From: Microbacteriaceae bacterium
GTDB taxonomy: Bacteria; Actinomycetota; Actinomycetes; Actinomycetales; Microbacteriaceae
Length of the DNA: 33,861 nucleotides
Direction: 5' to 3'
Assembly (NCBI GenBank): GCA_021741825.1
Contig: JAIOXB010000005.1
Location: 1 to 33,861, forward strand
The position numbers and the translations under genes were made by a program. Under the pieces are notes generated by a model that saw only the letters and a program-made list of their open reading frames with translations, was not told the DNA's origin and did not search any database. Of this stretch, positions 1-21,293 are shown in pieces; position 1 is the first letter of the stretch, and each line of letters starts with the position of its first letter.

Positions 1-1182
1 TTCAAGCGTCGTTGGGTCCGTTACCAAACGGTAGGGAACAACGTTGTAAACGGTACGCGTGATGTAGCTTGTGTAACCATTTGTGATGTAGTCCGGGTTG
101 ATCACGAGGTTCGCCCCAGAGCCGCTGGTTGGTACGACACCATTGAGGGTTCCGATTACCGCTCCGAAACGAACATCGGTGACGCCTTCAATTCCCTTGG
201 CCATCGCAATCCACTTCGGAATTGAGAACGGAGTGATGGCTCCAGGGTTTCCGTCGACAGCAGCACCACTGTGCTCCTGCACCGAAATACCGGTGTAGTC
301 CGCTGCTGATGTGAAGGTATTGTCTCCTCCGGAAACATCGCCCGCGTCTCCGGCTACGAAGGCCTTACGCTCGACACAGTTCGAAACGGAACTGCCGAAC
401 TTGGCACCAGACTTACCCTGCCAGAAGTCGCCGGTTCCCGACCCAGCTTGGGGAAGGTAGGCACGAATACGCGTAGAGGTCTCGCCATCGGCCAAGGTGT
501 AGCTGTTGTCTACGAGTTTGGTTTCTGCGCCAGTCTTGGTGATGATGCGAGTCGCAGCACAGTTGTAGATTGCCCACAGAGAGCTTGGTGTGACTCCGCT
601 ACCATTTGCGGCATCGGTCGAAGAACCAACGGTCAGCGCAGGCATCACCGAGTCATCGGAGACTGCATAACCCATTGCGTCTTTTGCAAATGGGACATAG
701 GCAACGACGCCACCCTCAACGACCGTGGGGCCGGAAGAGGAGCGCGAGTACTGGAATTGGCCAACAACATTATTGGCGCCAGCCACTGTTGACCACGAAC
801 CTGCAGAACCGCTGAAAGGAGTGCAGGTTTCTGAGTCATCTGCGCCGATTGCCACATTGAGGGCCTTGAGTCCGTTGCCGGAGCCGTTGGGACGACAAAT
901 CGCTGTGTTCCCATTTGACTTGGTCTGAATAGTCCCGGCAGCGTTCGCGTCGTAGGAGGCGAGCTTCCAATCACCGTTGTTCGACACTCGACCAATCGCA
1001 ATCTGAAGACCGTTCATGACATCCTGCGTGGTGTCCGAACCGACGCCGGAGAGTTGTCCGTACAGGGACTTCGCGCCGTTTGCAATCGGATCGGCTTGTG
1101 CGACGGGCGCAACAAGCCCGCCGAGAAGTAGTGCGGTGAGACCAGAGGCCGCAGCCAACTTGGTCGTCAACGAGAATTTCAT
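1..1182 (-). CDS. PstS-like secreted substrate-binding protein (C-terminus cut by window edge)
   Basis: At least 394 residues are visible; the stop lies beyond the left edge. The ATG at 1182 is preceded by a clear Shine-Dalgarno (GAAAGGAAAAC then ATG). A Sec signal peptide covers residues 1-30, with probable cleavage after AQA and a mature start at DPIAN. The mature part begins with GVGSDTTQDVMN (about 46-57), comparable to the first ligand loop (GAGSSW) of PstS, and carries RPNGSGNG (97-104), comparable to the RSDGSGST phosphate loop; FQYSRSS and VAYVPFAKDAMGYAV also fit a type II periplasmic-binding fold. No lipobox is present. It follows the pst genes on the same strand, with an 11-bp-periodic repeat upstream, so a phosphate-related surface role is likely. 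Binding of phosphate is inferred from the motifs. Confidence 0.82.
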   Translation of the reverse strand, partial: MKFSLTTKLAAASGLTALLLGGLVAPVAQADPIANGAKSLYGQLSGVGSDTTQDVMNGLQIAIGRVSNNGDWKLASYDANAAGTIQTKSNGNTAICRPNGSGNGLKALNVAIGADDSETCTPFSGSAGSWSTVAGANNVVGQFQYSRSSSGPTVVEGGVVAYVPFAKDAMGYAVSDDSVMPALTVGSSTDAANGSGVTPSSLWAIYNCAATRIITKTGAETKLVDNSYTLADGETSTRIRAYLPQAGSGTGDFWQGKSGAKFGSSVSNCVERKAFVAGDAGDVSGGDNTFTSAADYTGISVQEHSGAAVDGNPGAITPFSIPKWIAMAKGIEGVTDVRFGAVIGTLNGVVPTSGSGANLVINPDYITNGYTSYITRTVYNVVPYRLVTDPTTLE

Positions 1183-1271
1183 TGTTTTCCTTTCGTGGGT
1201 GCGCCCCGGACCTGAACCCAGTTCCGTGGCGGTGTGATGGAGTCCCATCTCACATTCCCAATGTTCATTCC

Positions 1272-1304
1272 CCAAGGTAAATAGCAGTCGAACTCGACGT
1301 TAAC
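1272..1304 (-). promoter_or_regulatory. Possible degenerate PHO box (three 11-bp units)
   Basis: Read on the minus strand, three consecutive 11-mers occur: GTTAACGTCGA, GTTCGACTGCT and ATTTACCTTGG. Each starts with a GTT/ATT-type half like the GTTCACC half-sites bound by PhoP in actinobacteria. The block begins 2 bases after the stop codon of the 841-residue gene and 90 bases before the start of the secreted PstS-like gene. The match to consensus is weak in the second unit, so this is a suggestion supported mainly by the 11-bp phase and the context. Confidence 0.35.
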
Positions 1305-1305
1305 G

Positions 1306-3831
1306 CTAGAGGGATTTTGCCTTTCGAATTAGGGTTCGTCCACCCGCAATCATGGGAATTCCGAAGCACAATGCTGACAACATTGAATACCGCAACGCGG
1401 ACGATGGATCGCCAGGAAACTTCCCAGTTGCAGCAGCCGAAGCTTCCGTGACAGGTGTTCCGAGGTTGTCAGTTGGTAATGTCGGGGACACTGTCGTGTC
1501 AAAATCAGTGGACTCTGACGCCAAGTGTTCAGGACAAACAGGATTCGATACTTCTGCAGAAATTTTGCCGATTGCACTCTTTGTCTGTGCGACTTGCGCG
1601 TCATCGAGTGGGACATAACCCACCGGGATTTCACCCTCTCCATTTCCGATGGTTTGACCATCGTTGGCGATGTGCGACAACAGGCCTTTGAAGGACTTGA
1701 GCTCGCCAATCGACGAACGACACACGTCCACCGCGGCATACGTCAGTGTCGCAAGGGGGTACGACTCCTCTTTGGCTAATGTCGCGGTTGAGACCTTCAC
1801 ACCTACGACGTTGGATTCGACAAACTCGGACACAGCTGAATCAATCGATGCGGAATTTGCTTGGACAGCCTCACCACTTGGATTGATGAGTTTTGCCGTC
1901 GAGAGGCCCAATCGTTCCGCAGTCGCAAGATCAGTAACCGTGAGCATGAATCGGCGCCCTAGAAGTTGCGAACCGCTTGACACAAATGCTGCAGGCGAAC
2001 GACCGGTGTCCCAAAACGTTTTGGTTCCTGGTTCTCCGCGAAATGCGCGAACACCACCGTCGTGGAGATCATGTACATATGGCCGAAGTTCGAAAGTTCC
2101 GAAACCAGGTTCCGGGACGGTATCAGATTCCCTGAAGGTTGCCGTGTCGGCTTTGGGGAATGAGTTGATTGTTTCGTCGTTGTCGATGTCGAGAGTTTGG
2201 TAGTTCCGGTTAACTACCATTCCCCAATCGTCCGCAATCCCATCCAGGAAGGCCTTTGCGTCGGCGTCAGCCTTAACGTAATCCCACAACTGTGCGAACA
2301 CATCTTCGTTACCAATCGGCACCATCAAACCTGCAGGCTCCGCACCATTGACGAACTGATCAAACTCTGGGTTTAGTTCAAGGAACTCGGGGTCGTGGCG
2401 CAGATTCAGGGCATTCGTGGCCAGATAGGAAAGTCGCTCCCCGCCCGCAACATCGGCTTTATACGACTGAGTCAACAGTTTTGCCACTAATCGAGGATTC
2501 AACGTCATTTCCGTGACCTGTTGTCCATCTTTGGACTCGAGAGGGTAGCCACCTTTAATGAAGTAATTGATGTTGAATGCGATTGTCAACGCAGATTTCA
2601 CAGCGGGAGCGTAGACGACCGTTGAATCTCCCACTTCGATTGAGGAGAGCGGATTATCGACGAATGCGAGTCGAGCCGCCCCATCTGTATCACTAACAAT
2701 GTTTCGTCTTGATTCTGCATCGCCGATCATCGAGAATCCAAAGACAGACTTCTTCGCGCACATTGCCGATTGCCATGACGAGAATGCAGGGGTCACCAAC
2801 TGATTGCCGGTGGTACGCAATTCATCAGCCCCGATGGGGCAGTTGGATTCGACGCTCCGGAAACTAAGCGGAAACTCGAATCGGTTGTCCCAGTTCGACT
2901 GAGACAGCGGCGAGCCCGACAAACGGCCGTTGACGCCGTCAAGAAAGTTTTCACCCGAAGCAGTAAATTCACCGCGAGGCACGACAACAAGCCAACAATC
3001 GCGAATCTCGCCATCCGCCTGCGGGGATCCGCACCCTAAGTGAGGCGCCTCCACGACGGTCTGAATCTCGAACGTTGCTTCTCCAGTTCCATTTGAGGTG
3101 GTTCGAGCCCCAGAGATTTCATTGGTCGATGTAGCGTCAAAGAAACGCTCGACATCGTGAGTAGTTTGTCCATCCGGATAAAGCGTGTTTGGTGCTGTTT
3201 CAAACGGCACGGAATAGGTGTATTCGTACTCCCCCAAGGGCGGGCGGATAGCGAATTTGCCGGTGTAGTCCTGGATAGGGTCTTCACCTTCAAATCCGAG
3301 AGATCGAGTCATGGCATTCGAACCCAATAGCGAAACGTTGGCTCCAGTCGCTGCACCAAATTGACATCTCGCCGGGTCGGCCGAGCCACTCCCGTCGTCC
3401 CAACATTGCATAATTTGCATAAAGTTCGACGCAAGTTGCTGAGCCGACGTTTCGACACCACCGTTCCAGGTGACTTTGACAGCCTGATAGCTAAGGTCCT
3501 GCACCTGGCTTACAGATACCTGGAGGTTTTCAAAGAGCGAATAGTTGGGTGCGGCATTGTCACGAACAGTGTCGAGCCAGTCGATTGTCATCGATCCGTC
3601 GGAGTTGACGCGCGGCGTTCGAGAGGCCTGTCGCGATACGGGCTCTGCTGCCGGCTCTGTTGTCGGCTCGACCGTCGGCGTATCCGTGGGGAGAACCCCG
3701 ACGGTTACATCGCCTTCCGCGGCGTATGCCGAGGTGACGGCCATTCCTCCGAAAAACACTCCGAGCCCCAAATCGGTGAGCAGCAGCACTGCGAGAAATC
3801 GTGTTCGTTTCGGCGGTCGGCGCTCTGACAT
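1306..3831 (-). CDS. Large membrane-anchored PstS-like surface protein
   Basis: The protein has 841 residues from the ATG at 3831, which lies 2 bases after the pstS stop; the open frame continues upstream but only into pstS sequence. A signal peptide ends near AYA|AEG (residue 37), followed by a Pro/Thr/Glu-rich linker (about 48-64). The N-terminal domain contains NFMQIMQCW (136-144). From about 405 the sequence becomes PstS-like (VVYAPAVKSALTIAFNIN, then MTLNPRLVAKLLTQSY), with YPLATLTYAAV and GYVPLDDAQ nearer the C-terminus, as in type II binding proteins. A hydrophobic segment at about 813-831 followed by RTLIRKAKSL anchors the C-terminus in the membrane. It is co-transcribed with pst and probably helps capture phosphate or a phosphorylated ligand at the cell surface. 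The N-terminal domain has no function I recognise. Confidence 0.8.
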   Translation of the reverse strand: MSERRPPKRTRFLAVLLLTDLGLGVFFGGMAVTSAYAAEGDVTVGVLPTDTPTVEPTTEPAAEPVSRQASRTPRVNSDGSMTIDWLDTVRDNAAPNYSLFENLQVSVSQVQDLSYQAVKVTWNGGVETSAQQLASNFMQIMQCWDDGSGSADPARCQFGAATGANVSLLGSNAMTRSLGFEGEDPIQDYTGKFAIRPPLGEYEYTYSVPFETAPNTLYPDGQTTHDVERFFDATSTNEISGARTTSNGTGEATFEIQTVVEAPHLGCGSPQADGEIRDCWLVVVPRGEFTASGENFLDGVNGRLSGSPLSQSNWDNRFEFPLSFRSVESNCPIGADELRTTGNQLVTPAFSSWQSAMCAKKSVFGFSMIGDAESRRNIVSDTDGAARLAFVDNPLSSIEVGDSTVVYAPAVKSALTIAFNINYFIKGGYPLESKDGQQVTEMTLNPRLVAKLLTQSYKADVAGGERLSYLATNALNLRHDPEFLELNPEFDQFVNGAEPAGLMVPIGNEDVFAQLWDYVKADADAKAFLDGIADDWGMVVNRNYQTLDIDNDETINSFPKADTATFRESDTVPEPGFGTFELRPYVHDLHDGGVRAFRGEPGTKTFWDTGRSPAAFVSSGSQLLGRRFMLTVTDLATAERLGLSTAKLINPSGEAVQANSASIDSAVSEFVESNVVGVKVSTATLAKEESYPLATLTYAAVDVCRSSIGELKSFKGLLSHIANDGQTIGNGEGEIPVGYVPLDDAQVAQTKSAIGKISAEVSNPVCPEHLASESTDFDTTVSPTLPTDNLGTPVTEASAAATGKFPGDPSSALRYSMLSALCFGIPMIAGGRTLIRKAKSL

Positions 3832-3833
3832 GA

Positions 3834-5414
3834 CTATCGAACCTTCCGTGCGGCATAAGTGACGACTACGGGCGGAACAACAACGATGAGAACCAACACG
3901 ATGATGACGCTGAGGATGATCCAGTTCGTCGCCGCCCAACCATTTGAGGTCGTAGCTACAGGGATTGCTTTCACGTTGGAACACACGCCCGTGTCGACGT
4001 CACAAGTAGTCGGCCCTGTTCCCATGGTTCCACCCATGACGCCGCCGCCGGTCGTTCCAGTTCCTGTTGTGCCTCCGGTGGTTCCTGTAATCGTTGTGCC
4101 GGTCGTCGTTCCCCCTGAGGTCGTGCCCGTTGCGCCACCGGTGCCCGCGGTGCACTGCTCGACACCCTTTTTGTCACAGGCGTCCGGCATGGGTGCGTTC
4201 TTGGCTAGCGTGTTTTCGCCCGATGCCGAGAACGTCGGGTTGTTGCACTTGGCAATGTTGATCTTGGAGGTGTCCGCACCCGGGATTTTCGAGACCTGCT
4301 CAAGGCCTACCTTGACAAGGTTCACAGGAAGAGGGGAATAGCCGAGCACTTCTGCTTGTTGTTGGCCCTCACACAAAAAATAGTTCGAAAAAGCCGCAAG
4401 GGTTCCGCCCTTGGCGGCAGTAAAGGAGGCCTGTTCCGTCGTGGGGACGATGATGTAGGAATAGGACGACAGCGGGTATGCGCGGGCGTCCTTGCTGTTG
4501 TAGACCCCACCGAGCTCTTGCGTCAAATACATCGATGAGTTTTTGTTTTGGTTGATTTTTGCTCCGAGGAGACCGACCGCGACGTTGGAAGCGGTCGGTT
4601 CAACGTAGTAGTTCGCATCGTTGAGGATCTTCGCGACGGGGAAATTGGTCTTTAGAGCGTAGGAATACTCGACGTACGTGATGGTTCCTTCGTTGGCTTT
4701 CTGGGCAACATACCCCGAGACACCTTGAGAACCAGGCTGTGCGACCATGCCGGACTTCGTGGGGTAGAACGACGTCTGACCGCATTCATTGCGACCGACC
4801 GCGTTGCAGTAGTTGTTCCACAAAGACGTGTACTTGGTTGCCATCCACAGCGTGAATTGGGCTGTCGAACCAGAACCGTCCGATCGAACTACGGGAACGA
4901 CGGCGCGATCCGGGAGCGTGATGCCGGGGTTATCGGCGGCAATCGCCGCGTCATTCCACTTCGTGATGACGCCCGTGAACATCTTGGTGACGACGTCACC
5001 TGAAAGTCGGAGGTTAGTGATTCGGTTTCCACCCGATGTCAAGTTGTACATGAACGCCGTTCCACCTGCGACGATTGGGATATAGACGAATGGGCGCGTT
5101 GGCAGTTCATCCACAACACCGTTGTCCTTGAGTCCATAGGGCGTTTCGGAAACGCCGAAGTCAACAGTTCCACCCTTGAATTGGTTGCGCCCGTCAACCG
5201 AACCGGTCGACGCGTAGTTGACGCTCATGCCGTACTGCTTGACGTTTCGACGCCACTGGTCAAGCGCATTTGCGCTCCATGACGAGCCCGCACCCGAGAT
5301 CGGCACGTAGTCGGCAGCCACGGCAGCGGTTGACCCACCCGTAACGATGATGGCCGTCAAGAGGAACGCCAGTAATGCGCGGACGGACGATACAAATTTT
5401 TGGCGAGCGTTCAC
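3834..5414 (-). CDS. pstS: Phosphate ABC transporter substrate-binding protein PstS, membrane-anchored
   Basis: The protein has 526 residues from a GTG at 5414. That start has a GAAGGA ribosome-binding site 6 bases upstream and overlaps the pstA stop as GTGA; a longer upstream frame lies wholly inside pstA and is rejected. Signal peptide at about 1-34. The phosphate-binding pattern is clear: ISGAGSSW (39-46), VDFGVSE (84-90), RSDGSGST (177-184), and the MFTGVITKWND segment typical of PstS. Residues about 430-480 are a Gly/Thr-rich low-complexity stalk, followed by one transmembrane segment (about 497-520) and the basic tail AARKVR. E. coli PstS is about 350 residues, so the extra length is the stalk and anchor. 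There is no lipobox. It captures inorganic phosphate outside the membrane for PstCA. Confidence 0.94.
   Translation of the reverse strand: MNARQKFVSSVRALLAFLLTAIIVTGGSTAAVAADYVPISGAGSSWSANALDQWRRNVKQYGMSVNYASTGSVDGRNQFKGGTVDFGVSETPYGLKDNGVVDELPTRPFVYIPIVAGGTAFMYNLTSGGNRITNLRLSGDVVTKMFTGVITKWNDAAIAADNPGITLPDRAVVPVVRSDGSGSTAQFTLWMATKYTSLWNNYCNAVGRNECGQTSFYPTKSGMVAQPGSQGVSGYVAQKANEGTITYVEYSYALKTNFPVAKILNDANYYVEPTASNVAVGLLGAKINQNKNSSMYLTQELGGVYNSKDARAYPLSSYSYIIVPTTEQASFTAAKGGTLAAFSNYFLCEGQQQAEVLGYSPLPVNLVKVGLEQVSKIPGADTSKINIAKCNNPTFSASGENTLAKNAPMPDACDKKGVEQCTAGTGGATGTTSGGTTTGTTITGTTGGTTGTGTTGGGVMGGTMGTGPTTCDVDTGVCSNVKAIPVATTSNGWAATNWIILSVIIVLVLIVVVPPVVVTYAARKVR
4015..4160 (-). repeat. Gly/Thr-rich low-complexity stalk coding repeat in pstS
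   Basis: The minus strand encodes short repeated GGT, TGT and GTT tripeptide blocks, built from ACC/ACA/GGA/GGC-type codons in imperfect tandem. The stretch separates the folded PstS domain from the membrane anchor and probably acts as a flexible spacer through the cell wall. It is the kind of sequence that varies in length between strains. Confidence 0.6.
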
Positions 5415-6676
5415 GAGGGTTCCTTCGCGTTGAGAGTGCGTCGACGTGCGATCGACGTGAGGGTGCGGGCAGTTTTGGCGAACCATCCGAAGAACTCGGC
5501 GCGGCGAATTCGCGCACGTGCCGACTTTTCGGGGGTCATGCCACCGATGATTCGGGCGATGACGAAAAGTGCAAGGACGAGAAGCATGAGCACAGCCGCG
5601 GTACCAAAACCTCGGGCGATCATCGTCGGTTCGGGCGACTTCACAAACTGGAAGATTGCAAGAGGGAGCGAGATCATCGGGGATTCGAGCGGGTTAACGT
5701 TGAGCTCGGCGGTGAATCCCGAAGTCAACAGAACCGGTGACGTCTCGCCAATTCCACGGGCTGTAGCGAGAATGATTGATGTCGTAAGACCGGACCGCGA
5801 TGTGGGTAGGACGACGTTCCAGACGGTCTTCCATTGAGATGCGCCGAGCCCAATGGACGCTTCTTTGAGCGTTTGAGGTACGAGACGCAACACGACATCA
5901 GCGGATCGAATCATGATGGGGAGCATCATGACGCTGATCGCGAGCGAGGCCGCGAGGCCCGATTTCGGAAGCCCGAACATCAGGATTGCAGTAGCGAAAA
6001 TGAACAAACCGGCAACGATTGAGGGGAGCGCCGTCATCGCTTCAACAATGGTGCGAACGAAACGAGAGAAACGGCCTGGGATTTCGTTCAGATACACAGC
6101 GGCGGCGATTCCGAGCGGGATCGTGATTGCCAGCGCAATCGCGATTTGGATGAGCGATCCCGCGATAGCGTGCGCCACACCACCGACGCTGAGAGGGTCA
6201 AGTGGTCCTGCTAGCCCCATGTCTTCCGTGTAGAAGGTGAGGTACGGCAGCGCCTCGGCACCGCGACCGATCACGAAGACGATGACGAAGATGAGGACCG
6301 AGAAGAGGAGTACGGCAACGCTCGTGACCAAGACCGCGATGAGGCGATCCATCACGAAGGTCTTGGTGTCGTCGATTGACACGAGGAGCGCGTACAAGCC
6401 CACGAACGTCAGGTACCACACCACGAAGAAAGCGATTCCGCCGGTGATGGGGGCGACCTGGGTCGCGAGAACGATTGTCAGCGCGAACGCAGCAACGGCC
6501 GCTCCCAGAATCGACAGAAGGTCGCCGATGCGAATTCCACCCAGTGTTCGCTTGGGTTCAACACCGACGAATTCCCCACGCGGGTGAATCGTTGTGACCT
6601 TTGCCGACGGGCGCTTCTTGCGTGATACGCCGACGAGAGCGTTGGTGCTTACGGGGGCCTTCGTGGTCGTTGCCAT
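5411..6676 (-). CDS. pstA: Phosphate ABC transporter permease PstA
   Basis: The protein has 421 residues and starts with ATG at 6676, overlapping the pstC stop by one base (TAATG). It is longer than E. coli PstA (about 296) because of a roughly 50-residue basic cytoplasmic N-terminus, extra N-terminal membrane segments and a basic C-terminal tail rich in Arg. The permease core has the ATPase-contact loop (EASIGLGASQWKTVWNVVLPTSRSG) and the family signature ILATARGIGETSPVLLTSG. It forms the membrane channel with PstC and passes phosphate received from PstS; a PstB ATPase is needed but is not encoded in the window. It is followed by pstS with a 4-base GTGA overlap, which implies translational coupling. 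Confidence 0.94.
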   Translation of the reverse strand: MATTTKAPVSTNALVGVSRKKRPSAKVTTIHPRGEFVGVEPKRTLGGIRIGDLLSILGAAVAAFALTIVLATQVAPITGGIAFFVVWYLTFVGLYALLVSIDDTKTFVMDRLIAVLVTSVAVLLFSVLIFVIVFVIGRGAEALPYLTFYTEDMGLAGPLDPLSVGGVAHAIAGSLIQIAIALAITIPLGIAAAVYLNEIPGRFSRFVRTIVEAMTALPSIVAGLFIFATAILMFGLPKSGLAASLAISVMMLPIMIRSADVVLRLVPQTLKEASIGLGASQWKTVWNVVLPTSRSGLTTSIILATARGIGETSPVLLTSGFTAELNVNPLESPMISLPLAIFQFVKSPEPTMIARGFGTAAVLMLLVLALFVIARIIGGMTPEKSARARIRRAEFFGWFAKTARTLTSIARRRTLNAKEPS

Positions 6677-7653
6677 TAGGACGCTGCCCCCGATCGCGAC
6701 CGAGCGACGACGATTGATGCGCCGAAGTTGACGATGAGGGTCATTGTAAAGAGCGCGAGGCCCGCCGCCATGAGGGCCGACAGTCCCATCTCAGTTGACT
6801 CGCCGTAACGAAGGGCGATGAGCGCCGCGACGGACGATGCACCGTTTTGCAGGATGTTCGGCTGGATGACGAAGACAGGCGAGATGATCATGTACACCGC
6901 GATTGTCTCGCCCAGGGCGCGACCGAGACCGAGCATCGTTCCACCGATGATTCCGCCCTGGCCGAACGGAAGGACGACGTTGCGGATCATTGCCCAGCGG
7001 GTCGCACCGAGTGCCAGAGCGCCCTCGCGTTCACCGACGGGAGTCTGCGAGAACACTTCTCGCATGATGGACGTGACAATGGGCGTGACCATAATCCCGA
7101 CGACGATTCCGGCGATGAACGTCGATGACGTGTAGACCGTCGTTGTGGCGAGCGGGTCGGTTGGGTCGACCCCCGTCACGCCGAGCCCGGGAATCCAGCC
7201 GAAGTATTGCGAAATCCAGCGCGAAACCGGAACGATCGCCTGCTGAAGAAAGAAGAACCCCCACAGCCCGAAGACGACGGAGGGAATTGCGGCCATGAGG
7301 TCGACAATCGACACGAGAAAGCTGCGAAGTTGCCTGGGTGCATATTCGGTGATGAACAGTGCGGTTCCCAGCGAGAGCGGAAGCGCCACGATGATCGCGA
7401 CTGTGGCGATGAGGATAGTTCCGACGATGACGGCGGCGATACCGAACTTACCGGCGTCGGGTTCCCATGCCTGTTCGGTGAAGAAGCTCCACCCCGCCAT
7501 ATTGAGCGCCTGCGCCGCGCGATAACCGAGGAATGAACCGACCAGCACCATGATGATGAGCACCACAGAGCCGCCCGCGCGAATGACTCCGCGGAAGACC
7601 TTGTCGCTTCCATCACGAATGATGGTGAGCTTGCGTGGTGTGTCGGTGAGCAT
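6676..7653 (-). CDS. pstC: Phosphate ABC transporter permease PstC
   Basis: The protein has 325 residues, a normal PstC length. After a basic N-terminus comes a hydrophobic segment (VVLIIMVLVGSFLGY), the WSFF...W motif with FGIAAVIVGTILIATVAI, and the PSVVFGLWG signature. The ATPase-contact loop is EGALALGATRWAMIRNVVLPFGQGGIIGG, followed by GLGRALGETIAVYMI. It is the first gene of the pst operon here, preceded by a PHO box within 100 bases, so it should be induced by phosphate starvation through the PhoR-PhoP system (inferred). The gene order pstC-pstA-pstS differs from the common pstS-pstC-pstA-pstB. Confidence 0.95.
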   Translation of the reverse strand: MLTDTPRKLTIIRDGSDKVFRGVIRAGGSVVLIIMVLVGSFLGYRAAQALNMAGWSFFTEQAWEPDAGKFGIAAVIVGTILIATVAIIVALPLSLGTALFITEYAPRQLRSFLVSIVDLMAAIPSVVFGLWGFFFLQQAIVPVSRWISQYFGWIPGLGVTGVDPTDPLATTTVYTSSTFIAGIVVGIMVTPIVTSIMREVFSQTPVGEREGALALGATRWAMIRNVVLPFGQGGIIGGTMLGLGRALGETIAVYMIISPVFVIQPNILQNGASSVAALIALRYGESTEMGLSALMAAGLALFTMTLIVNFGASIVVARSRSGAAS

Positions 7654-7710
7654 GAATCCGTTTCCTCAAGGTGTCAGGCGCGACGGAAGTCGCACAACAA
7701 TGCTGGCTCA

Positions 7711-7732
7711 ACGAGGTAAACGGAGGGTGAAC
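7711..7732 (-). promoter_or_regulatory. PHO box (PhoP-binding direct repeat) upstream of pstC
   Basis: On the minus strand two adjacent 11-mers read GTTCACCCTCC and GTTTACCTCGT. This agrees closely with the 11-bp direct-repeat units of actinobacterial PHO boxes (GTTCACC-type halves). It lies about 58 bases before the pstC start codon, the right place to control the pst operon. Confidence 0.78.
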
Positions 7733-7754
7733 GGTGACACTGCCGAACAAAAAC

Positions 7755-8543
7755 TTAGTGTCGGGAGGAATCCGACTTCATGAGGGTTTTTGCGACGGAA
7801 ATCAGCATTCGACGGGGAACAAACCGTCCTGCCATCGCCATGACGCGATTGGAGGATCCGACGATGACGCTGGGCGGCGGGGATTTTGTATCAAGGGCCG
7901 ACATCGCGGTGGCGACAACTTGCGAAGGAGTCATGAGTCCACCCGACATCGCGCGCCCGCCGGCGACGTCGAAAAATTCGGTTGCCGTTCCGCCGGGCGA
8001 GACGGCGAGCGCCGTCACACCCGTTCCCTGCAACTCGCCCCACAACGCTTCGGTGAACGACAAAACATAGGCCTTCGTCGCGGCATAAACCGACATGTTG
8101 GGAACGGGTTGATACGCGGCGGTTGACGCGATGTTGATGATTGTTCCACGGCCACGTTCGATCATCGGCGCGACGAACAATCGTGAGAGTTGCGTCAAGG
8201 CGGTGATGTTGACGTTGATCTCGTCGGCCATGCCGTCGAGATCTTCGGCGGCGAATGCGCCGATGTGGCCCCACCCCGAATTGTTGACGAGCACGTCGAT
8301 TGGGGTTTTCCCGACAGCGGTCGCGAGTTTTTTCGCAGCGCCCGGTACCGAGAGGTCCGATGCAACCACACGCACGCTTACCCCGTGAGACGCAGTGATT
8401 TCTGCGGCCAGCGCATCCAGTCGATCGGTTCGTCGCGCAGCGATGACGAGGTCGTGTCCGCGCGATGCGTATTCGCGGGCGAACACCGCGCCGATCCCGC
8501 TGCTCGCGCCGGTGATGAGTGCTGTTGGTCGTTTTTCTGCCAT
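7755..8543 (-). CDS. Short-chain dehydrogenase/reductase (SDR) oxidoreductase
   Basis: The 262 residues form a classical SDR of normal length. The nucleotide-binding motif TGASSGIG is at 11-18, NNSG at 87-90, the catalytic serine at about 140 (IINIAST), and Tyr153 and Lys157 in YAATK. The second strand ends in AARRTDRL, and the arginines suggest NADP(H) preference (inference). The substrate is unknown; related proteins act on acyl or steroid-like carbonyls. A TAGACT box ends 6 bases before the ATG with no Shine-Dalgarno, suggesting a leaderless transcript. It diverges from the TetR-type gene, a usual arrangement for a repressor and its target. It is on the same strand as the pst operon, but the PHO box lies between them. 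Confidence 0.9.
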   Translation of the reverse strand: MAEKRPTALITGASSGIGAVFAREYASRGHDLVIAARRTDRLDALAAEITASHGVSVRVVASDLSVPGAAKKLATAVGKTPIDVLVNNSGWGHIGAFAAEDLDGMADEINVNITALTQLSRLFVAPMIERGRGTIINIASTAAYQPVPNMSVYAATKAYVLSFTEALWGELQGTGVTALAVSPGGTATEFFDVAGGRAMSGGLMTPSQVVATAMSALDTKSPPPSVIVGSSNRVMAMAGRFVPRRMLISVAKTLMKSDSSRH

Positions 8544-16683: not shown

Positions 16684-17699
16684 CAGAGGTGCGTGACCTC
16701 CGCAGCCAGAGGGGCGAGGAAAGTCGTGGCCGTCTCGTGGAGCACTTTGCCGAGTTCGGCGTTGTCCAGACCCATCACTCTCTCTACTGTCTGAACCGGG
16801 TTCATGTCCGCCATGTCGAACGGGTAGTCGCTTCCCAGGAAAACTCGATCCGCACCCATTCGGTTGATCAACAGGGCCAGCGACTGATCGTCGTGAGTGA
16901 GCGAATCGAACCAGAAATGCTTCAAGAGAGTGGAAGGCGCGACAGGAAGATGAACCTTGGGCTCTGGTCGAGCCGCCCAGCCGTGATCGAATCGTCCGAT
17001 TTGATAGGGCAGGAAGCCGCCACCGTGCAGCAGTCCGAACCGAAGACGTGGGTGCCGTGTCAACACCCCCCCGAACATGAGCGACCCCGCCGCGAGCGTC
17101 GTGTCGGTCGGGTTTCCCACGAAGTTGTGCAGATAGTGCGCCTTCATTCGGCCGGTTCCCTCAACCACGTCGTGGGGATGAAGGACAATTGGCATTCCGG
17201 CCAGCGCGATGGCCGCCCAGATTGGATCGAGTTCTGGCGCATCGAGATTGACTCCGGCGACGTTCGTGGCGAGTTCAACCCCAACCACATGAGGTGATTG
17301 TGCCAGTCGGGACAGTTCCGCGATCGCGAAATCAGCGCTCTGCATCGGAAGCGTTGCAAGGACAACGAACCTGTCCGGGCTCGCCTCTGCCATCGCAATC
17401 ATCGAATCGTTGTGGCTGGCGGCGACGAGCGCTGCAAGTTCAGCGTCAACGTGATAGTTGAAGTGTGTCGGGGGGACACTGAGCGCTTGAACGTCAATTC
17501 GCATCGCATCCATGTCCTTGATGCGCGCTTCGTGGTCGAACATTCCGATTGGCATCGGTCCACTCCGGCGTCCGTCTTCATAGACAAACGTGCAATTCGA
17601 GCCGTCCAGTTCGATGCGAGGCGCTAGTTGCGGTGCTTCGCTTTTCATCCTCTCGATGTGATCGGCAGGAACGGTGTGGGCATGTACGTCAATGGTCAT
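16683..17699 (-). CDS. Amidohydrolase-2 family protein, ACMSD-like decarboxylase/hydrolase
   Basis: The protein has 338 residues, normal for the ACMSD-related branch. Metal and catalytic residues are HAH at 6-8, His174 in LHPHD, His225 in LLHGGGFLPYQIGRFDHGW, and Asp291 in GSDYPFD. These match, each shifted by three, the zinc ligands and catalytic His I recall for Pseudomonas ACMSD (9, 11, 177, 228, 294). Relatives non-oxidatively decarboxylate aromatic or muconate-type acids; some are hydrolases. The ATG has a TTGGAG site and starts 11 bases inside the permease end. The gene sits between an importer and a TSUP permease, so it probably acts on the imported compound or an intermediate. Confidence 0.88.
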   Translation of the reverse strand: MTIDVHAHTVPADHIERMKSEAPQLAPRIELDGSNCTFVYEDGRRSGPMPIGMFDHEARIKDMDAMRIDVQALSVPPTHFNYHVDAELAALVAASHNDSMIAMAEASPDRFVVLATLPMQSADFAIAELSRLAQSPHVVGVELATNVAGVNLDAPELDPIWAAIALAGMPIVLHPHDVVEGTGRMKAHYLHNFVGNPTDTTLAAGSLMFGGVLTRHPRLRFGLLHGGGFLPYQIGRFDHGWAARPEPKVHLPVAPSTLLKHFWFDSLTHDDQSLALLINRMGADRVFLGSDYPFDMADMNPVQTVERVMGLDNAELGKVLHETATTFLAPLAAEVTHL

Positions 17700-18537
17700 T
17701 TTTCTCCAAGTCAGGGCGGGATACTGCAGTGGATCTCCAGAAGACGATTCTCTTCTCTGCGAAGGAAATCAGCAGATACGCACTGACTCCAATCACCAGG
17801 AAGCACAGAATAAGAACCCAGGCGGCGGGGGTGTCGTAGCTCGAGCGATACCTCAACAGCAAGAAGCCAAGGCCCGCGTCCGCCCCGACAAACTCCGAGA
17901 CGATTGCACCGATGATTGCGGTTGTCGCGCCGAGTTGCAAACCGCCAAAGATAACGGGCAGCGCAGAGGGAACTCGCAGCTTCAACAGTGTCTGGAGTTT
18001 TGATGCTCCGAGTGACTGCATGAGGGAAACGCTGTTTGCGTTGGCTAGCGACAACCCGGACAGCGTCGTGATAAACACGGCGTAGAAACACGCAATGGCC
18101 GCCTGCACCGCCTTGCCCTCAATTCCGAAACCGAACCACGCGATGATCAGCGGGGCGATGATGACGGTCGGAACTGCTTCCAGCGCGCTGAGCGCCGGAA
18201 GATACGCGGCTCGAAGAACGCTCGATGACCCGAGCAACAATCCGAGAAGGAAACCAACCGCGGCACCCAGGGCGAATCCGGCAAGTGTCTCGATCAACGT
18301 TCGAGAGGCGTGGATGCCAAAGGTTTCTGATCCCAACACGCGTGGAATCGATGTCAGAACGGCTTCAGGCCCTGGCAAAAGAATGGGATGCAAGACTTCG
18401 AGCTGTGTCACCACGAACCAGACAAGGAGGATTGCCGGGAAGAGCGCGGCGGTTATCCAGTAGGGCGATACCTTCCTGCGCTTCTTTTGAGGGTCGAGTA
18501 GCGTCGCCTGTGCGCCGCTTGTGGCTGCTGTGCTCAT
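17689..18537 (-). CDS. NitT/TauT-type ABC transporter permease, second subunit
   Basis: From ATG at 18537, which overlaps the preceding permease stop by 4 bases (ATGA), the protein has 282 residues; a longer upstream frame lies in the neighbour and is rejected. About six membrane segments follow a Lys/Arg-rich cytoplasmic N-terminus. The ATPase-contact loop is QSLGASKLQTLLKLRVPSALP, and LSALEAVPTVIIAPLIIAWFGFG is typical of the SsuC/TauC permease group. It is paired with the next permease upstream, so the channel is probably a heterodimer, less common than the single-permease Tau/Ssu systems. Confidence 0.9.
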   Translation of the reverse strand: MSTAATSGAQATLLDPQKKRRKVSPYWITAALFPAILLVWFVVTQLEVLHPILLPGPEAVLTSIPRVLGSETFGIHASRTLIETLAGFALGAAVGFLLGLLLGSSSVLRAAYLPALSALEAVPTVIIAPLIIAWFGFGIEGKAVQAAIACFYAVFITTLSGLSLANANSVSLMQSLGASKLQTLLKLRVPSALPVIFGGLQLGATTAIIGAIVSEFVGADAGLGFLLLRYRSSYDTPAAWVLILCFLVIGVSAYLLISFAEKRIVFWRSTAVSRPDLEKNDH

Positions 18538-19367
18538 GACTTTTTGCCTCGCTCGCTCTCGGACCAAAAGACCGCTTTTCTTTCAAGCACATCCATGATC
18601 GACACCAATGACACCGCGATGGTCAGAACCACGGTGATGACAGCCAGCGTCAAGGGCATGTTCAACTGAATAGAGAATTCCTTGACCAGTTTGCCGAGAC
18701 CGTTTGATGCGGACGACAAAATCTCGGCCACTAGGACACCGGTGAACGAGAGCAGCATTGCGTGCTTCATGCCCACCAAGACGATCGGCACGGCTGAAGG
18801 CATTTGCAGCTTGCGGAACAACTGCACACGCGTTGCGTTGAGCGACCGCATGAACGTGAACTCCGCAGCGCTGGGAAGTGAAAGTCCGACCATCGTGTTG
18901 ATCCAGACCGGGAAGAAGCAAATGGCGACCGCGATGGCGATCTTGCTTTCAGGTCCGAAGCCCAGCGCCCCGATCAGGACGGGAGCTAAGACGATTTTGG
19001 GAAGGGCTTGAAGCGCGATTGCATAGGGCGTGATGGCGGTGCGGACAAATGGAGAAGTCCCCAGCACGACGCCCATGGTGATTCCGAAGGCCACACCAAT
19101 CGTCCAGGCGATCAACACGGACGACAGGGTACTGGCCAAATCCTCCCACCAATACCCTCCAATAATGAGCTGCCCGAGCCCCCAGATTGTGTCGGACACC
19201 GTCGGGATGAGAACGCGATTTAGCACACCGAGGGTCGGAAGAATTTCCCACAGAGCCAGGAAGACCACGAGCGTGACGGTACCGACGATGACCGATTGTG
19301 TCGTGGACTTACTCTGTTTTCTGAGTTCTTTGCCGCGAGACCGGACGTCGGCAGCGGTGGAGGTCAT
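18534..19367 (-). CDS. NitT/TauT-type ABC transporter permease, first subunit
   Basis: The 277 residues include about six membrane segments. The coupling loop is MRSLNATRVQLFRKLQMPSAVP, and ALQALPKIVLAPVLIGALGFG is the conserved segment of the SsuC/TauC/ThiX type. It overlaps the ATPase gene by 4 bases on one side and the second permease by 4 on the other, so all three are translated as a unit. It shares layout but only moderate sequence with the second permease, consistent with an old duplication. The partner binding lipoprotein and ATPase are directly upstream. Confidence 0.9.
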   Translation of the reverse strand: MTSTAADVRSRGKELRKQSKSTTQSVIVGTVTLVVFLALWEILPTLGVLNRVLIPTVSDTIWGLGQLIIGGYWWEDLASTLSSVLIAWTIGVAFGITMGVVLGTSPFVRTAITPYAIALQALPKIVLAPVLIGALGFGPESKIAIAVAICFFPVWINTMVGLSLPSAAEFTFMRSLNATRVQLFRKLQMPSAVPIVLVGMKHAMLLSFTGVLVAEILSSASNGLGKLVKEFSIQLNMPLTLAVITVVLTIAVSLVSIMDVLERKAVFWSESERGKKS

Positions 19368-20140
19368 GCCAGGCCTAACATTTCGCGAGCCTGGACCACG
19401 AGCTTGGTGAACTCTGGGCGCCCATAGAGCTCGGGCTTACGCGGCCGCTCAAACGGAACATCGATGACTCCGATGAGGCGGCCCGGTCGTGCACTCATCA
19501 CGGCGATTCGATCCGACATGAACACCGCCTCGCTGATGTTGTGCGTGACCAATACCGCGGTCGATCCCGAGTGGCTTTGAAGCCGCAAGAGCTCTTGGTT
19601 CATTGTCTCGCGGGTGAATTCATCGAGAGCACCGAAGGGCTCATCGAGAAGGAGAAGTTTCGGGTGGTGAATGAGCACGCGACAGAGCGCAGCACGCTGC
19701 TGCATTCCACCCGACAATTGCCACGGATACGATTTGGCGAATTCTGTCATGCCGACCATCTCCAAAAGCTCTTCGGCTTTCGCAACATAGTCCTTTTTGT
19801 TCAAGCCAAAGACTTCGATCGGGAGAAGAACGTTTTCAATCGTTGTCCTCCACGGGAACATGACCGCTTGCTGGAACATCATGCCGATGTCTCGGCGTGG
19901 CTTTGTCATTTCTTCGCCGGCGATCGTGATTATTCCCTCGGAGGCTTTCAGCAAACCGCCCATGATGTTGAGGGCGGTCGACTTACCGCAACCACTGGGA
20001 CCCAGGAGGGAGAGAAACTCCCCCTCCCGGGCCTCAAGGTCAAGGCCACTGAGCGCAACGATTTCATTGCTACCCGACTGGTACTTCTTAGAGACACCCT
20101 CTAAGCGGACCAGTACTTTGGAATCGTTATTCTTTGGCAT
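19364..20140 (-). CDS. NitT/TauT-type ABC transporter ATP-binding protein
   Basis: The 258 residues have all ATPase motifs: Walker A GPSGCGKST (47-55), Q-loop MFQQAVMFPW, signature LSGGMQQR (142-149), Walker B LLLLDE (162-167) with DEPFGALDEFTR, and H-loop His200 in VTHNISEAV. The D-loop sequence FGALDEFTR and the end APGRLIGVIDVPFERPR are characteristic of the TauB/SsuB/NrtD group. It powers import with the two downstream permeases. It is 25 bases after the lipoprotein gene and overlaps the next gene by 4 bases. Confidence 0.95.
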   Translation of the reverse strand: MPKNNDSKVLVRLEGVSKKYQSGSNEIVALSGLDLEAREGEFLSLLGPSGCGKSTALNIMGGLLKASEGIITIAGEEMTKPRRDIGMMFQQAVMFPWRTTIENVLLPIEVFGLNKKDYVAKAEELLEMVGMTEFAKSYPWQLSGGMQQRAALCRVLIHHPKLLLLDEPFGALDEFTRETMNQELLRLQSHSGSTAVLVTHNISEAVFMSDRIAVMSARPGRLIGVIDVPFERPRKPELYGRPEFTKLVVQAREMLGLA

Positions 20141-20165: not shown

Positions 20166-21233
20166 TTAGTAGTTCGCTGCGTCTGATTCGACCCGAGCGC
20201 GGTCGAAGTCATTGGCAACACTGAGGTAATCGGTGTTGAGGAACACCGACAGATCGACGTCTTGAGCGTTGTCAATCGTCGACGCGATGAGAGCCAAGAA
20301 CGCGCTGGTTCCGGCCTCGTTGTGTGCACCGTACGCCGCTGAATCCGCGGGTGGCACCTGGGTGAGCGACAGCGCGAAGCGCAATCCACCCTGAGAGATG
20401 CCATCCATGTTTTCTTCGAACGCAGCCGGGATTACTTCCTTCAACATTCCAATACATGCTTCATTGTTTTGGAGGCAGAAGTGCGTTCCCATCGCGGTGC
20501 CCTTGGCAAAGAGACCCCATGCATCGCCCTTTTCTTCGAGCTTTGCGCTCGTCGTGATGATTCCACGAGCCGGGAATGTCTTGAACTCGGCAGGAGTCAG
20601 GTCAACCAGGTTCAAACCCTGAGTCTGCAACGCGAAGATGTCGTTGTACGCGGTTGAGTAGGCATCAACGTTTCCGCCTTCAATCGCAGCAAACGTCTCT
20701 GGTCCACCGTCACCGATTGGGATCAGGGTAGCGCCAGTGATGGGGTCGATTCCTTCATTGATGAGTGATGCCTCAAGGAAGGAAACCTCGCCGCCACCGG
20801 GTTCCGAGATACCGATGTTCTTGCCAGCAAGACCAGCGATGCTCGTGATACCTGAGGATTCCGGAGCGAAGATACCGAAAATCGCACCGGTCGAGTAGGT
20901 GTAGAGGTTGATGAGGTCAAGACCAACAACAATTCCTTCACCGACAGCGGGCATCGATGGGTTACCCGCATCGATGTTGCCAGCGACGAGCTGTTCCACA
21001 ACGTCGCCACTACCGCCAACTGCTTCGAACGTGACATCGAGTCCCAATTCGTCGTAGTAGCCGAGTTCAGACGCTGCAAGCCAGCCCCACCATTCAGCAG
21101 TGAAGGTGTCGCCGGATGCCATGCCCATAACGATTGAAACTTTCTCGGTAGGGGCGGCTGGAGCACACGCAGAAAGAGCAAAGGCGCCAACGGCCAAAAT
21201 CGCCATTGAGCCAAGCCGTCTCGTTTTGTTCAT
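20166..21233 (-). CDS. ABC transporter substrate-binding lipoprotein, NMT1/TauA-like
   Basis: From ATG at 21233, with a strong AAGGAG site, the protein has 355 residues; an earlier in-frame ATG at 21281 has no such site. The signal peptide ends in the lipobox LSAC with Cys23, so it is membrane-tethered by lipid. The mature protein follows the NMT1/SsuA pattern: YYDELGLDVTFEAVGGSGDVVEQLVAGNIDAGNPSMPAVGEGI, AGKNIGISEPGGGE, and IEGGNVDAYSTAYNDIFAL. These binders take small organic anions or heterocycles (taurine, sulfonates, thiamine precursors, aromatics); the ligand cannot be told from sequence. An inverted repeat 61 bases upstream resembles the one before the ThDP gene. Confidence 0.93.
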   Translation of the reverse strand: MNKTRRLGSMAILAVGAFALSACAPAAPTEKVSIVMGMASGDTFTAEWWGWLAASELGYYDELGLDVTFEAVGGSGDVVEQLVAGNIDAGNPSMPAVGEGIVVGLDLINLYTYSTGAIFGIFAPESSGITSIAGLAGKNIGISEPGGGEVSFLEASLINEGIDPITGATLIPIGDGGPETFAAIEGGNVDAYSTAYNDIFALQTQGLNLVDLTPAEFKTFPARGIITTSAKLEEKGDAWGLFAKGTAMGTHFCLQNNEACIGMLKEVIPAAFEENMDGISQGGLRFALSLTQVPPADSAAYGAHNEAGTSAFLALIASTIDNAQDVDLSVFLNTDYLSVANDFDRARVESDAANY

Positions 21234-21293
21234 TTGTTTCTCCTTATGATGGTTTTTAGTTTTCTTTCTGTACCTTTTCATACCGAACCCGAT

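Follow-up and report, generated by a model that had tools for sequence, protein, structure and literature searches.

The window analysed here is the whole of one contig (C67, 33,861 bp) from a Microbacteriaceae genome of 0.95 Mb that is 68% complete and whose closest relatives are Microbacteriaceae genomes from metagenomes. A row of genes on its minus strand, read from their translations, consists of pstC, pstA, PstS, an 841-aa protein designated P2, and a further protein designated P1 (Table 1). The contig ends at window base 1, within P1, and as a result the operon is cut off. The permeases are of the phosphate type, as both PstC and PstA exceed the curated TIGR equivalog cut-offs. PstS, P2, and P1 all lack a Cys near the signal peptide. 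The initial annotation of this DNA had reported three PstS-type surface proteins in one pst operon, none with a lipobox, and both statements hold: all three proteins can be assigned to the phosphate-binding-protein fold, and the set is conserved in relatives. Taken together, the window most likely holds the first (5') part of a second, phosphate-starvation-type Pst operon that recurs across many actinobacteria.

Table 1. Features of the pst operon in the window
Feature	Position	Strand	Details
pstC, phosphate ABC permease	6676..7653	-	TIGR02138 267 bits (cut-off 196)
pstA, phosphate ABC permease	5411..6676	-	TIGR00974 203.9 bits (cut-off 193)
PstS	3834..5414	-	GTG 5414 to stop 3834, 526 aa; signal peptide without lipobox
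PstS Gly/Thr-rich stalk	3996..4145	-	about residues 424-473, read from translation
PstS C-terminal membrane anchor and basic tail	3855..3926	-	strong helix; read from translation
P2	1306..3831	-	841 aa (ATG 3831 to 1306); signal peptide lacks Cys; both ends carry Pro/Thr-rich segments
P2 C-terminal helix (probable anchor)	1336..1389	-	weakly hydrophobic, basic tail; from translation and relatives
P1	1..1182	-	ATG 1182; 394 codons present, open at the contig end (base 1)
PHO-box-like direct repeat	7715..7732	-	GTTCACC-CTCC-GTTTACC (two 11-nt units), 79 bp upstream of the pstC ATG

The surroundings of the operon differ from those in a close relative, G013 (L022:8243-11725), in which ApbE-like, small redox-like, and reductase-like genes, named by eye, lie between an SDR gene and pstC. 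In the window, the SDR gene (7654-8543) abuts the operon without these three intervening genes. Elsewhere in the window, at 17689-20140 and 20166-21281, a receptor, an ATPase, and two permeases were recognised by eye as a complete NMT1/taurine-type ABC importer; the genes around it look catabolic, also by eye.

Lipoprotein PstS is usual in Gram-positive bacteria. A canonical lipobox was found neither in the PstS of the window nor in the operon PstS of relatives, and none of the latter carries an LPXTG-like signal. The C-terminal membrane anchor is present in 77/77 relatives. In sequence, the window protein matches PBP_like_2 (E 5.7e-39) and the TIGR00975 PstS equivalog (208.2 bits, cut-off 205), and the operon PstS proteins form a separate clade with a support of 0.986. 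Its phosphate site was compared with that of E. coli PstS, in the contact numbering of 1IXH. The equivalents of S38, R135, D137, S139, and G140 are conserved in all 35 sequences aligned, with Ser or Thr at T10 and Glu or Asp at D56; in the numbering of the operon PstS, the conserved contacts include S72, R177, S181, and G182 (35/35).

P2 is recognisable as a PstS relative by sequence alone in its C-terminal part, which matches PstS weakly (2e-6), and P1 gives no PstS match in family-profile searches. Single-sequence searches of the two proteins against the PDB returned nothing useful (no match, or DARPin noise), and profiles and structure models were needed to detect their fold. AlphaFold (AF2) models, built on 64-65 homologues, reached pLDDT 86.5 and pTM 0.84 for P2, and pLDDT 83.3 and pTM 0.80 for P1. 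When the P2 model was compared with the PDB by Foldseek, PstS structures ranked first (1a54, E 1.2e-13, TM normalised on PstS about 0.75); for P1, the best match was 4q8r (E 5.5e-7), and 22 of the 22 top matches were phosphate-binding proteins. Comparisons of profiles with that of PstS gave 96% probability for P2 and 73% (E 3e-5) for P1, and the C-terminal lobe of P2 is closest in sequence to PstS1 of Mycobacterium tuberculosis (E 4e-11). On these models, the phosphate-binding-protein fold of both extra proteins may be regarded as settled. The profiles of P1 and P2 show no detectable similarity to each other; the two are therefore not recent duplicates, and that origin was rejected.

The three proteins are attached to the cell in different ways. 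The two C-terminal anchors of the initial annotation stand firmly for PstS and with less force for P2, whose helix has a Kyte-Doolittle value of 1.5 in the nearest relative (L029); a value of 1.6 is passed by 63 of 79 relatives, and the helix is a probable membrane anchor. The same annotation took the third protein to be secreted. As the P1 of the window is cut by the contig end, its lack of an anchor rests on relatives, of which 0/75 have a C-terminal helix; no LPXTG-like signal was found in their P1 either. Within the genus, P1 extends to about 560-930 aa; in G010, G005, and G006, whose contigs are longer, its length is about 640-930 aa, and that of G010 runs into an Ig-like domain (Big_3_5, 7e-14).

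The binding sites differ as well. In P2, T10 is replaced by Glu or Asp (Gln in the window copy) and S38 by Asp or Glu, the R135 position is mostly Gly, and the SGT loop is deleted. No canonical phosphate-contact residue is left, which makes P2 unlikely to serve as a phosphate receptor. In P1, a site composed of GSDT, Ser/Gly, Arg-x-Ser, Ser-Gly, and Glu is invariant in 64/64 sequences. The S38, S139, and G140 positions are invariant and T141 is Thr or Ser, and the replacements of T10 by Asp and of R135 by Pro are invariant or nearly so. Since the Arg135 equivalent is replaced, the ligand of P1 may not be free phosphate. As judged from these residues, the canonical phosphate site among the three receptors is found only in PstS; that of P1 appears remodelled and that of P2 lost. 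P1, with an invariant but altered anion site, would thus be a better candidate than P2 for binding a phosphorylated ligand. The same site lends itself to the idea that P1 and P2 recognise phosphorus compounds other than phosphate (polyphosphate, phosphodiesters of teichoic or nucleic acids, or organophosphates) and, as receptors, feed the same permease or sense for it: the SGT and Ser38-type positions are kept in P1 next to the changes at Thr10 and Arg135, i.e., the site is conserved but different. We consider this unlikely, as the contact residues are lost altogether in P2 and the operon has no recognised gene for a phosphatase or phosphodiesterase.

Scanning 84,980 species genomes yielded 412 relatives of P2, and the locus counts given here come from the best 80 of the 412, with loci that have a long enough flank as denominators. 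These 80 are all Actinomycetota and range from lake Microbacteriaceae to Cellulomonas, Streptomyces, Nocardioides, and Actinoplanes. Among them, P1 follows P2 directly in 77/77 loci, PstS stands directly before P2 in 74/74, and the order pstC-pstA-pstS-P2 is kept in 67/69. Further downstream, a sortase-fold gene is present in 57/57 and directly precedes pstB in 55 of these. The relatives thus keep the same pst context, and the comparison of gene order brought up no unrelated function. In 297 genomes sampled from the phylum, full or near-full P2, P1, and the full-length sortase-fold protein share almost the same 8-9 genomes. Two genomes outside the class (G054 and G040) keep the set in a different order; with the set preserved and gene order variable among distant members, the association is not just an inherited neighbourhood. 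P2 in these two genomes (L122, L123) is about 600 aa long with the same partners, and is possibly an ancestral version.

For the window itself, the genes beyond the contig end are predicted from same-genus genomes. In the longer contigs of G010, G005, and G006, P1 is followed by a protein of about 405 aa with a sortase fold and then by pstB; the sortase-fold gene matches PF04203 with 1e-11 in G010 and 4e-13 in G005. Examples of this membrane protein are found at L025:5368-6453 and L021:10440-11669. The catalytic positions were set by PDB alignments, with the residues of SrtE1 taken from PMC5148588. In the sortase-like protein, the catalytic His is replaced by Arg in 69/69 sequences, and no aligned column of the sortase domain contains a Cys. 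Six further members outside the 69 likewise lack Cys and His at these sites, and a deep-branch member has AGRR and TTS where active sortases have AGHR and TTC. Because both catalytic residues are missing throughout, the downstream gene is predicted to encode a catalytically dead pseudosortase. It retains the conserved motifs GPGHRRD, PGQ, and TTGQG, hydrophobic C-terminal segments, and a near-invariant C-terminal PNL. An active sortase that cleaves the anchors was considered and rejected, as the catalytic residues are lacking and PstS and P1 have no LPXTG; among 79 P2 tails there is one sortase-type match, LAVTG.

The loss of the phosphate site in P2 and of the active site in the sortase could also mean that duplicated PstS paralogues under relaxed constraint persist next to a decayed sortase with no joint function. 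The conservation of the set, the order, and the residues disfavours this strongly: set and order are conserved across families and, rearranged, beyond the class, and many residues are invariant in P1 and in the pseudosortase, including its PNL end. Decay of this kind is therefore highly improbable.

In some lineages, genes for WxL- or WxLIP-like proteins lie between P1 and the pseudosortase (L027:10976-14051, L028:3826-6789, L091, L098, and L104), and some Streptomyces carry several copies in the operon. WxLIP-like genes occur in 14 of the best 80 loci and are found neither in the window nor in its nearest relatives. In G020 and G021, a WxLIP_PGBD match of 2e-5 lies below the Pfam cut-off and the WxL matches are weak. 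Together with the Ig-like domains of P1, such proteins resemble the Csc surface clusters of Firmicutes, which are surface complexes attached to peptidoglycan (PMC9772566). It could thus be argued that the extra proteins build an adhesion or envelope structure that spans the wall and is produced in phosphate starvation, with its genes sitting in the pst operon for regulation only and not for transport. Both P1 and P2, however, have the phosphate-binding-protein fold, the anion cleft of P1 is invariant, and pstB follows directly after the pseudosortase in nearly all loci. A structure of this kind is accordingly a rather improbable explanation.

A putative control of the operon by phosphate starvation is supported by the PHO-box-like repeat upstream of pstC. 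The repeat GTTCACCCTCCGTTTACC at window 7732-7715 scores 13/14, which no other site in the window does (base-shuffle P 5e-5). Among relatives, a repeat scoring at least 12/14 is found upstream of pstC in 23% of loci, compared with 0.4% of control stretches. Repeats of this score also occur before P1, in 11% of the P2-P1 gaps of 79 loci versus 0.4% of 400-base control stretches taken upstream of other sites; P1 may have its own promoter. The P2-P1 gap of the window (1183-1305) contains a weak repeat at most, by eye. The PHO boxes of Streptomyces are 11-nt direct repeats (PMC7866108). SCO1906 of S. coelicolor, a phosphate-starvation-induced, Tat-secreted protein (PMC2267785), is a conceivable candidate for this gene set.

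Several of the genomes that carry this operon have another PstS. In ten genomes, the PstS outside the operon, or the sole PstS where there is no operon, was read, and nine of the ten have a lipobox: six in operon-bearing genomes (G018, G020, G252, G306, G220, and G129) and three in genomes where no P2 match was found (G016, G017, and G022). A standard PstS lipoprotein is thus present in 6/7 operon-bearing genomes whose other PstS was read. The seventh is the same-genus genome G010, where the frame of the other PstS starts far upstream and has no lipobox as examined; a family search found no other PstS in the 68% complete genome of the window. Because of these two results, the second-system status rests on the more distant relatives, and by these sequences the operon would usually coexist, as a second Pst system, with a standard lipoprotein PstS.

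The identity of the operon as a Pst transporter is well supported. Its general form would be pstC-pstA-pstS(anchored)-P2-P1-[WxL/WxLIP proteins in some]-pseudosortase-pstB. PstS, tethered to the membrane via a flexible stalk and a C-terminal helix, would pass phosphate to PstCAB. P2, with a receptor fold that has no phosphate site, and the dead sortase would be parts of a non-catalytic membrane scaffold. P1, with its own anion site and, in relatives, its Ig-like extensions, would extend outward while being retained in the assembly, and would raise the local concentration of phosphate, or of a phosphorylated ligand, close to the transporter. We infer that P2, P1, and the pseudosortase may form one surface assembly, which fits their constant co-occurrence, matching location, and lost catalysis. 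The complete reading, a second Pst transporter for phosphate starvation whose membrane-tethered receptor assembly rests on a sortase scaffold that is non-catalytic, has in our judgement about an even chance of being correct. The layered phosphate capture proposed in the initial annotation is a fair sketch of it, with the corrections that P2 is a doubtful layer for phosphate and that the pseudosortase has to be added. The pseudosortase, pstB, the WxL/WxLIP proteins of some relatives, and the second-system status lie beyond the contig and were absent from that annotation.

The operon shares with the PstSCAB system of the Pho regulon the PstC, PstA, and PstS equivalogs, pstB as the closing gene in relatives, and 11-nt direct repeats upstream, as in Streptomyces (PMC7866108). 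It differs in that pstC comes first, PstS is held by a membrane helix and not by lipid, two proteins of the receptor fold and a pseudosortase are added, and it coexists with a standard lipoprotein PstS system in several genomes. The pseudosortase has the sortase fold of class E enzymes such as SrtE1 of Streptomyces coelicolor (PMC5148588), by Pfam and PDB profile matches, and class E is its best NCBIfam match, below the cut-off of that family; it differs in its catalytic residues, its hydrophobic C-terminal segments and PNL end, and in the lack of an LPXTG-like signal in the operon PstS and P1. The likeness to the Csc (WxL-DUF916) clusters of Firmicutes is confined to WxLIP-like and weak WxL-like proteins in some operons; these matches are weak, absent in the closest relatives of the window, and tied to a phosphate transporter. 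Mycobacterium tuberculosis, with PstS1 and PstS3, also has several PstS-fold proteins in one actinobacterium, whereas here the paralogues are of at least 394 aa and of 841 aa, are not lipoproteins, and the proteins have three different site types.

Each part of the operon belongs to a known fold family. In the open-licence literature searched, no description was found of the combination, the anchored PstS subfamily, P1, P2, or the pseudosortase, and in the part of the Streptomyces phosphate-transport review (PMC7866108) covered by term search there is no mention of a sortase, a PstS-like protein, or a second pst. Phosphate control shapes the growth and antibiotic production of actinobacteria, and P1, P2, and the pseudosortase provide a concrete gene set for Streptomyces genetics. 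The pseudosortase would be a further case of a sortase turned non-catalytic, here next to a nutrient transporter and fixed in many families. More tentatively, and with somewhat less confidence than we place in the reading of the operon itself, the set may represent a widespread phosphate surface machine of actinobacteria, in which a dead sortase, turned docking scaffold, carries the Pst receptors in an assembly outside the membrane.
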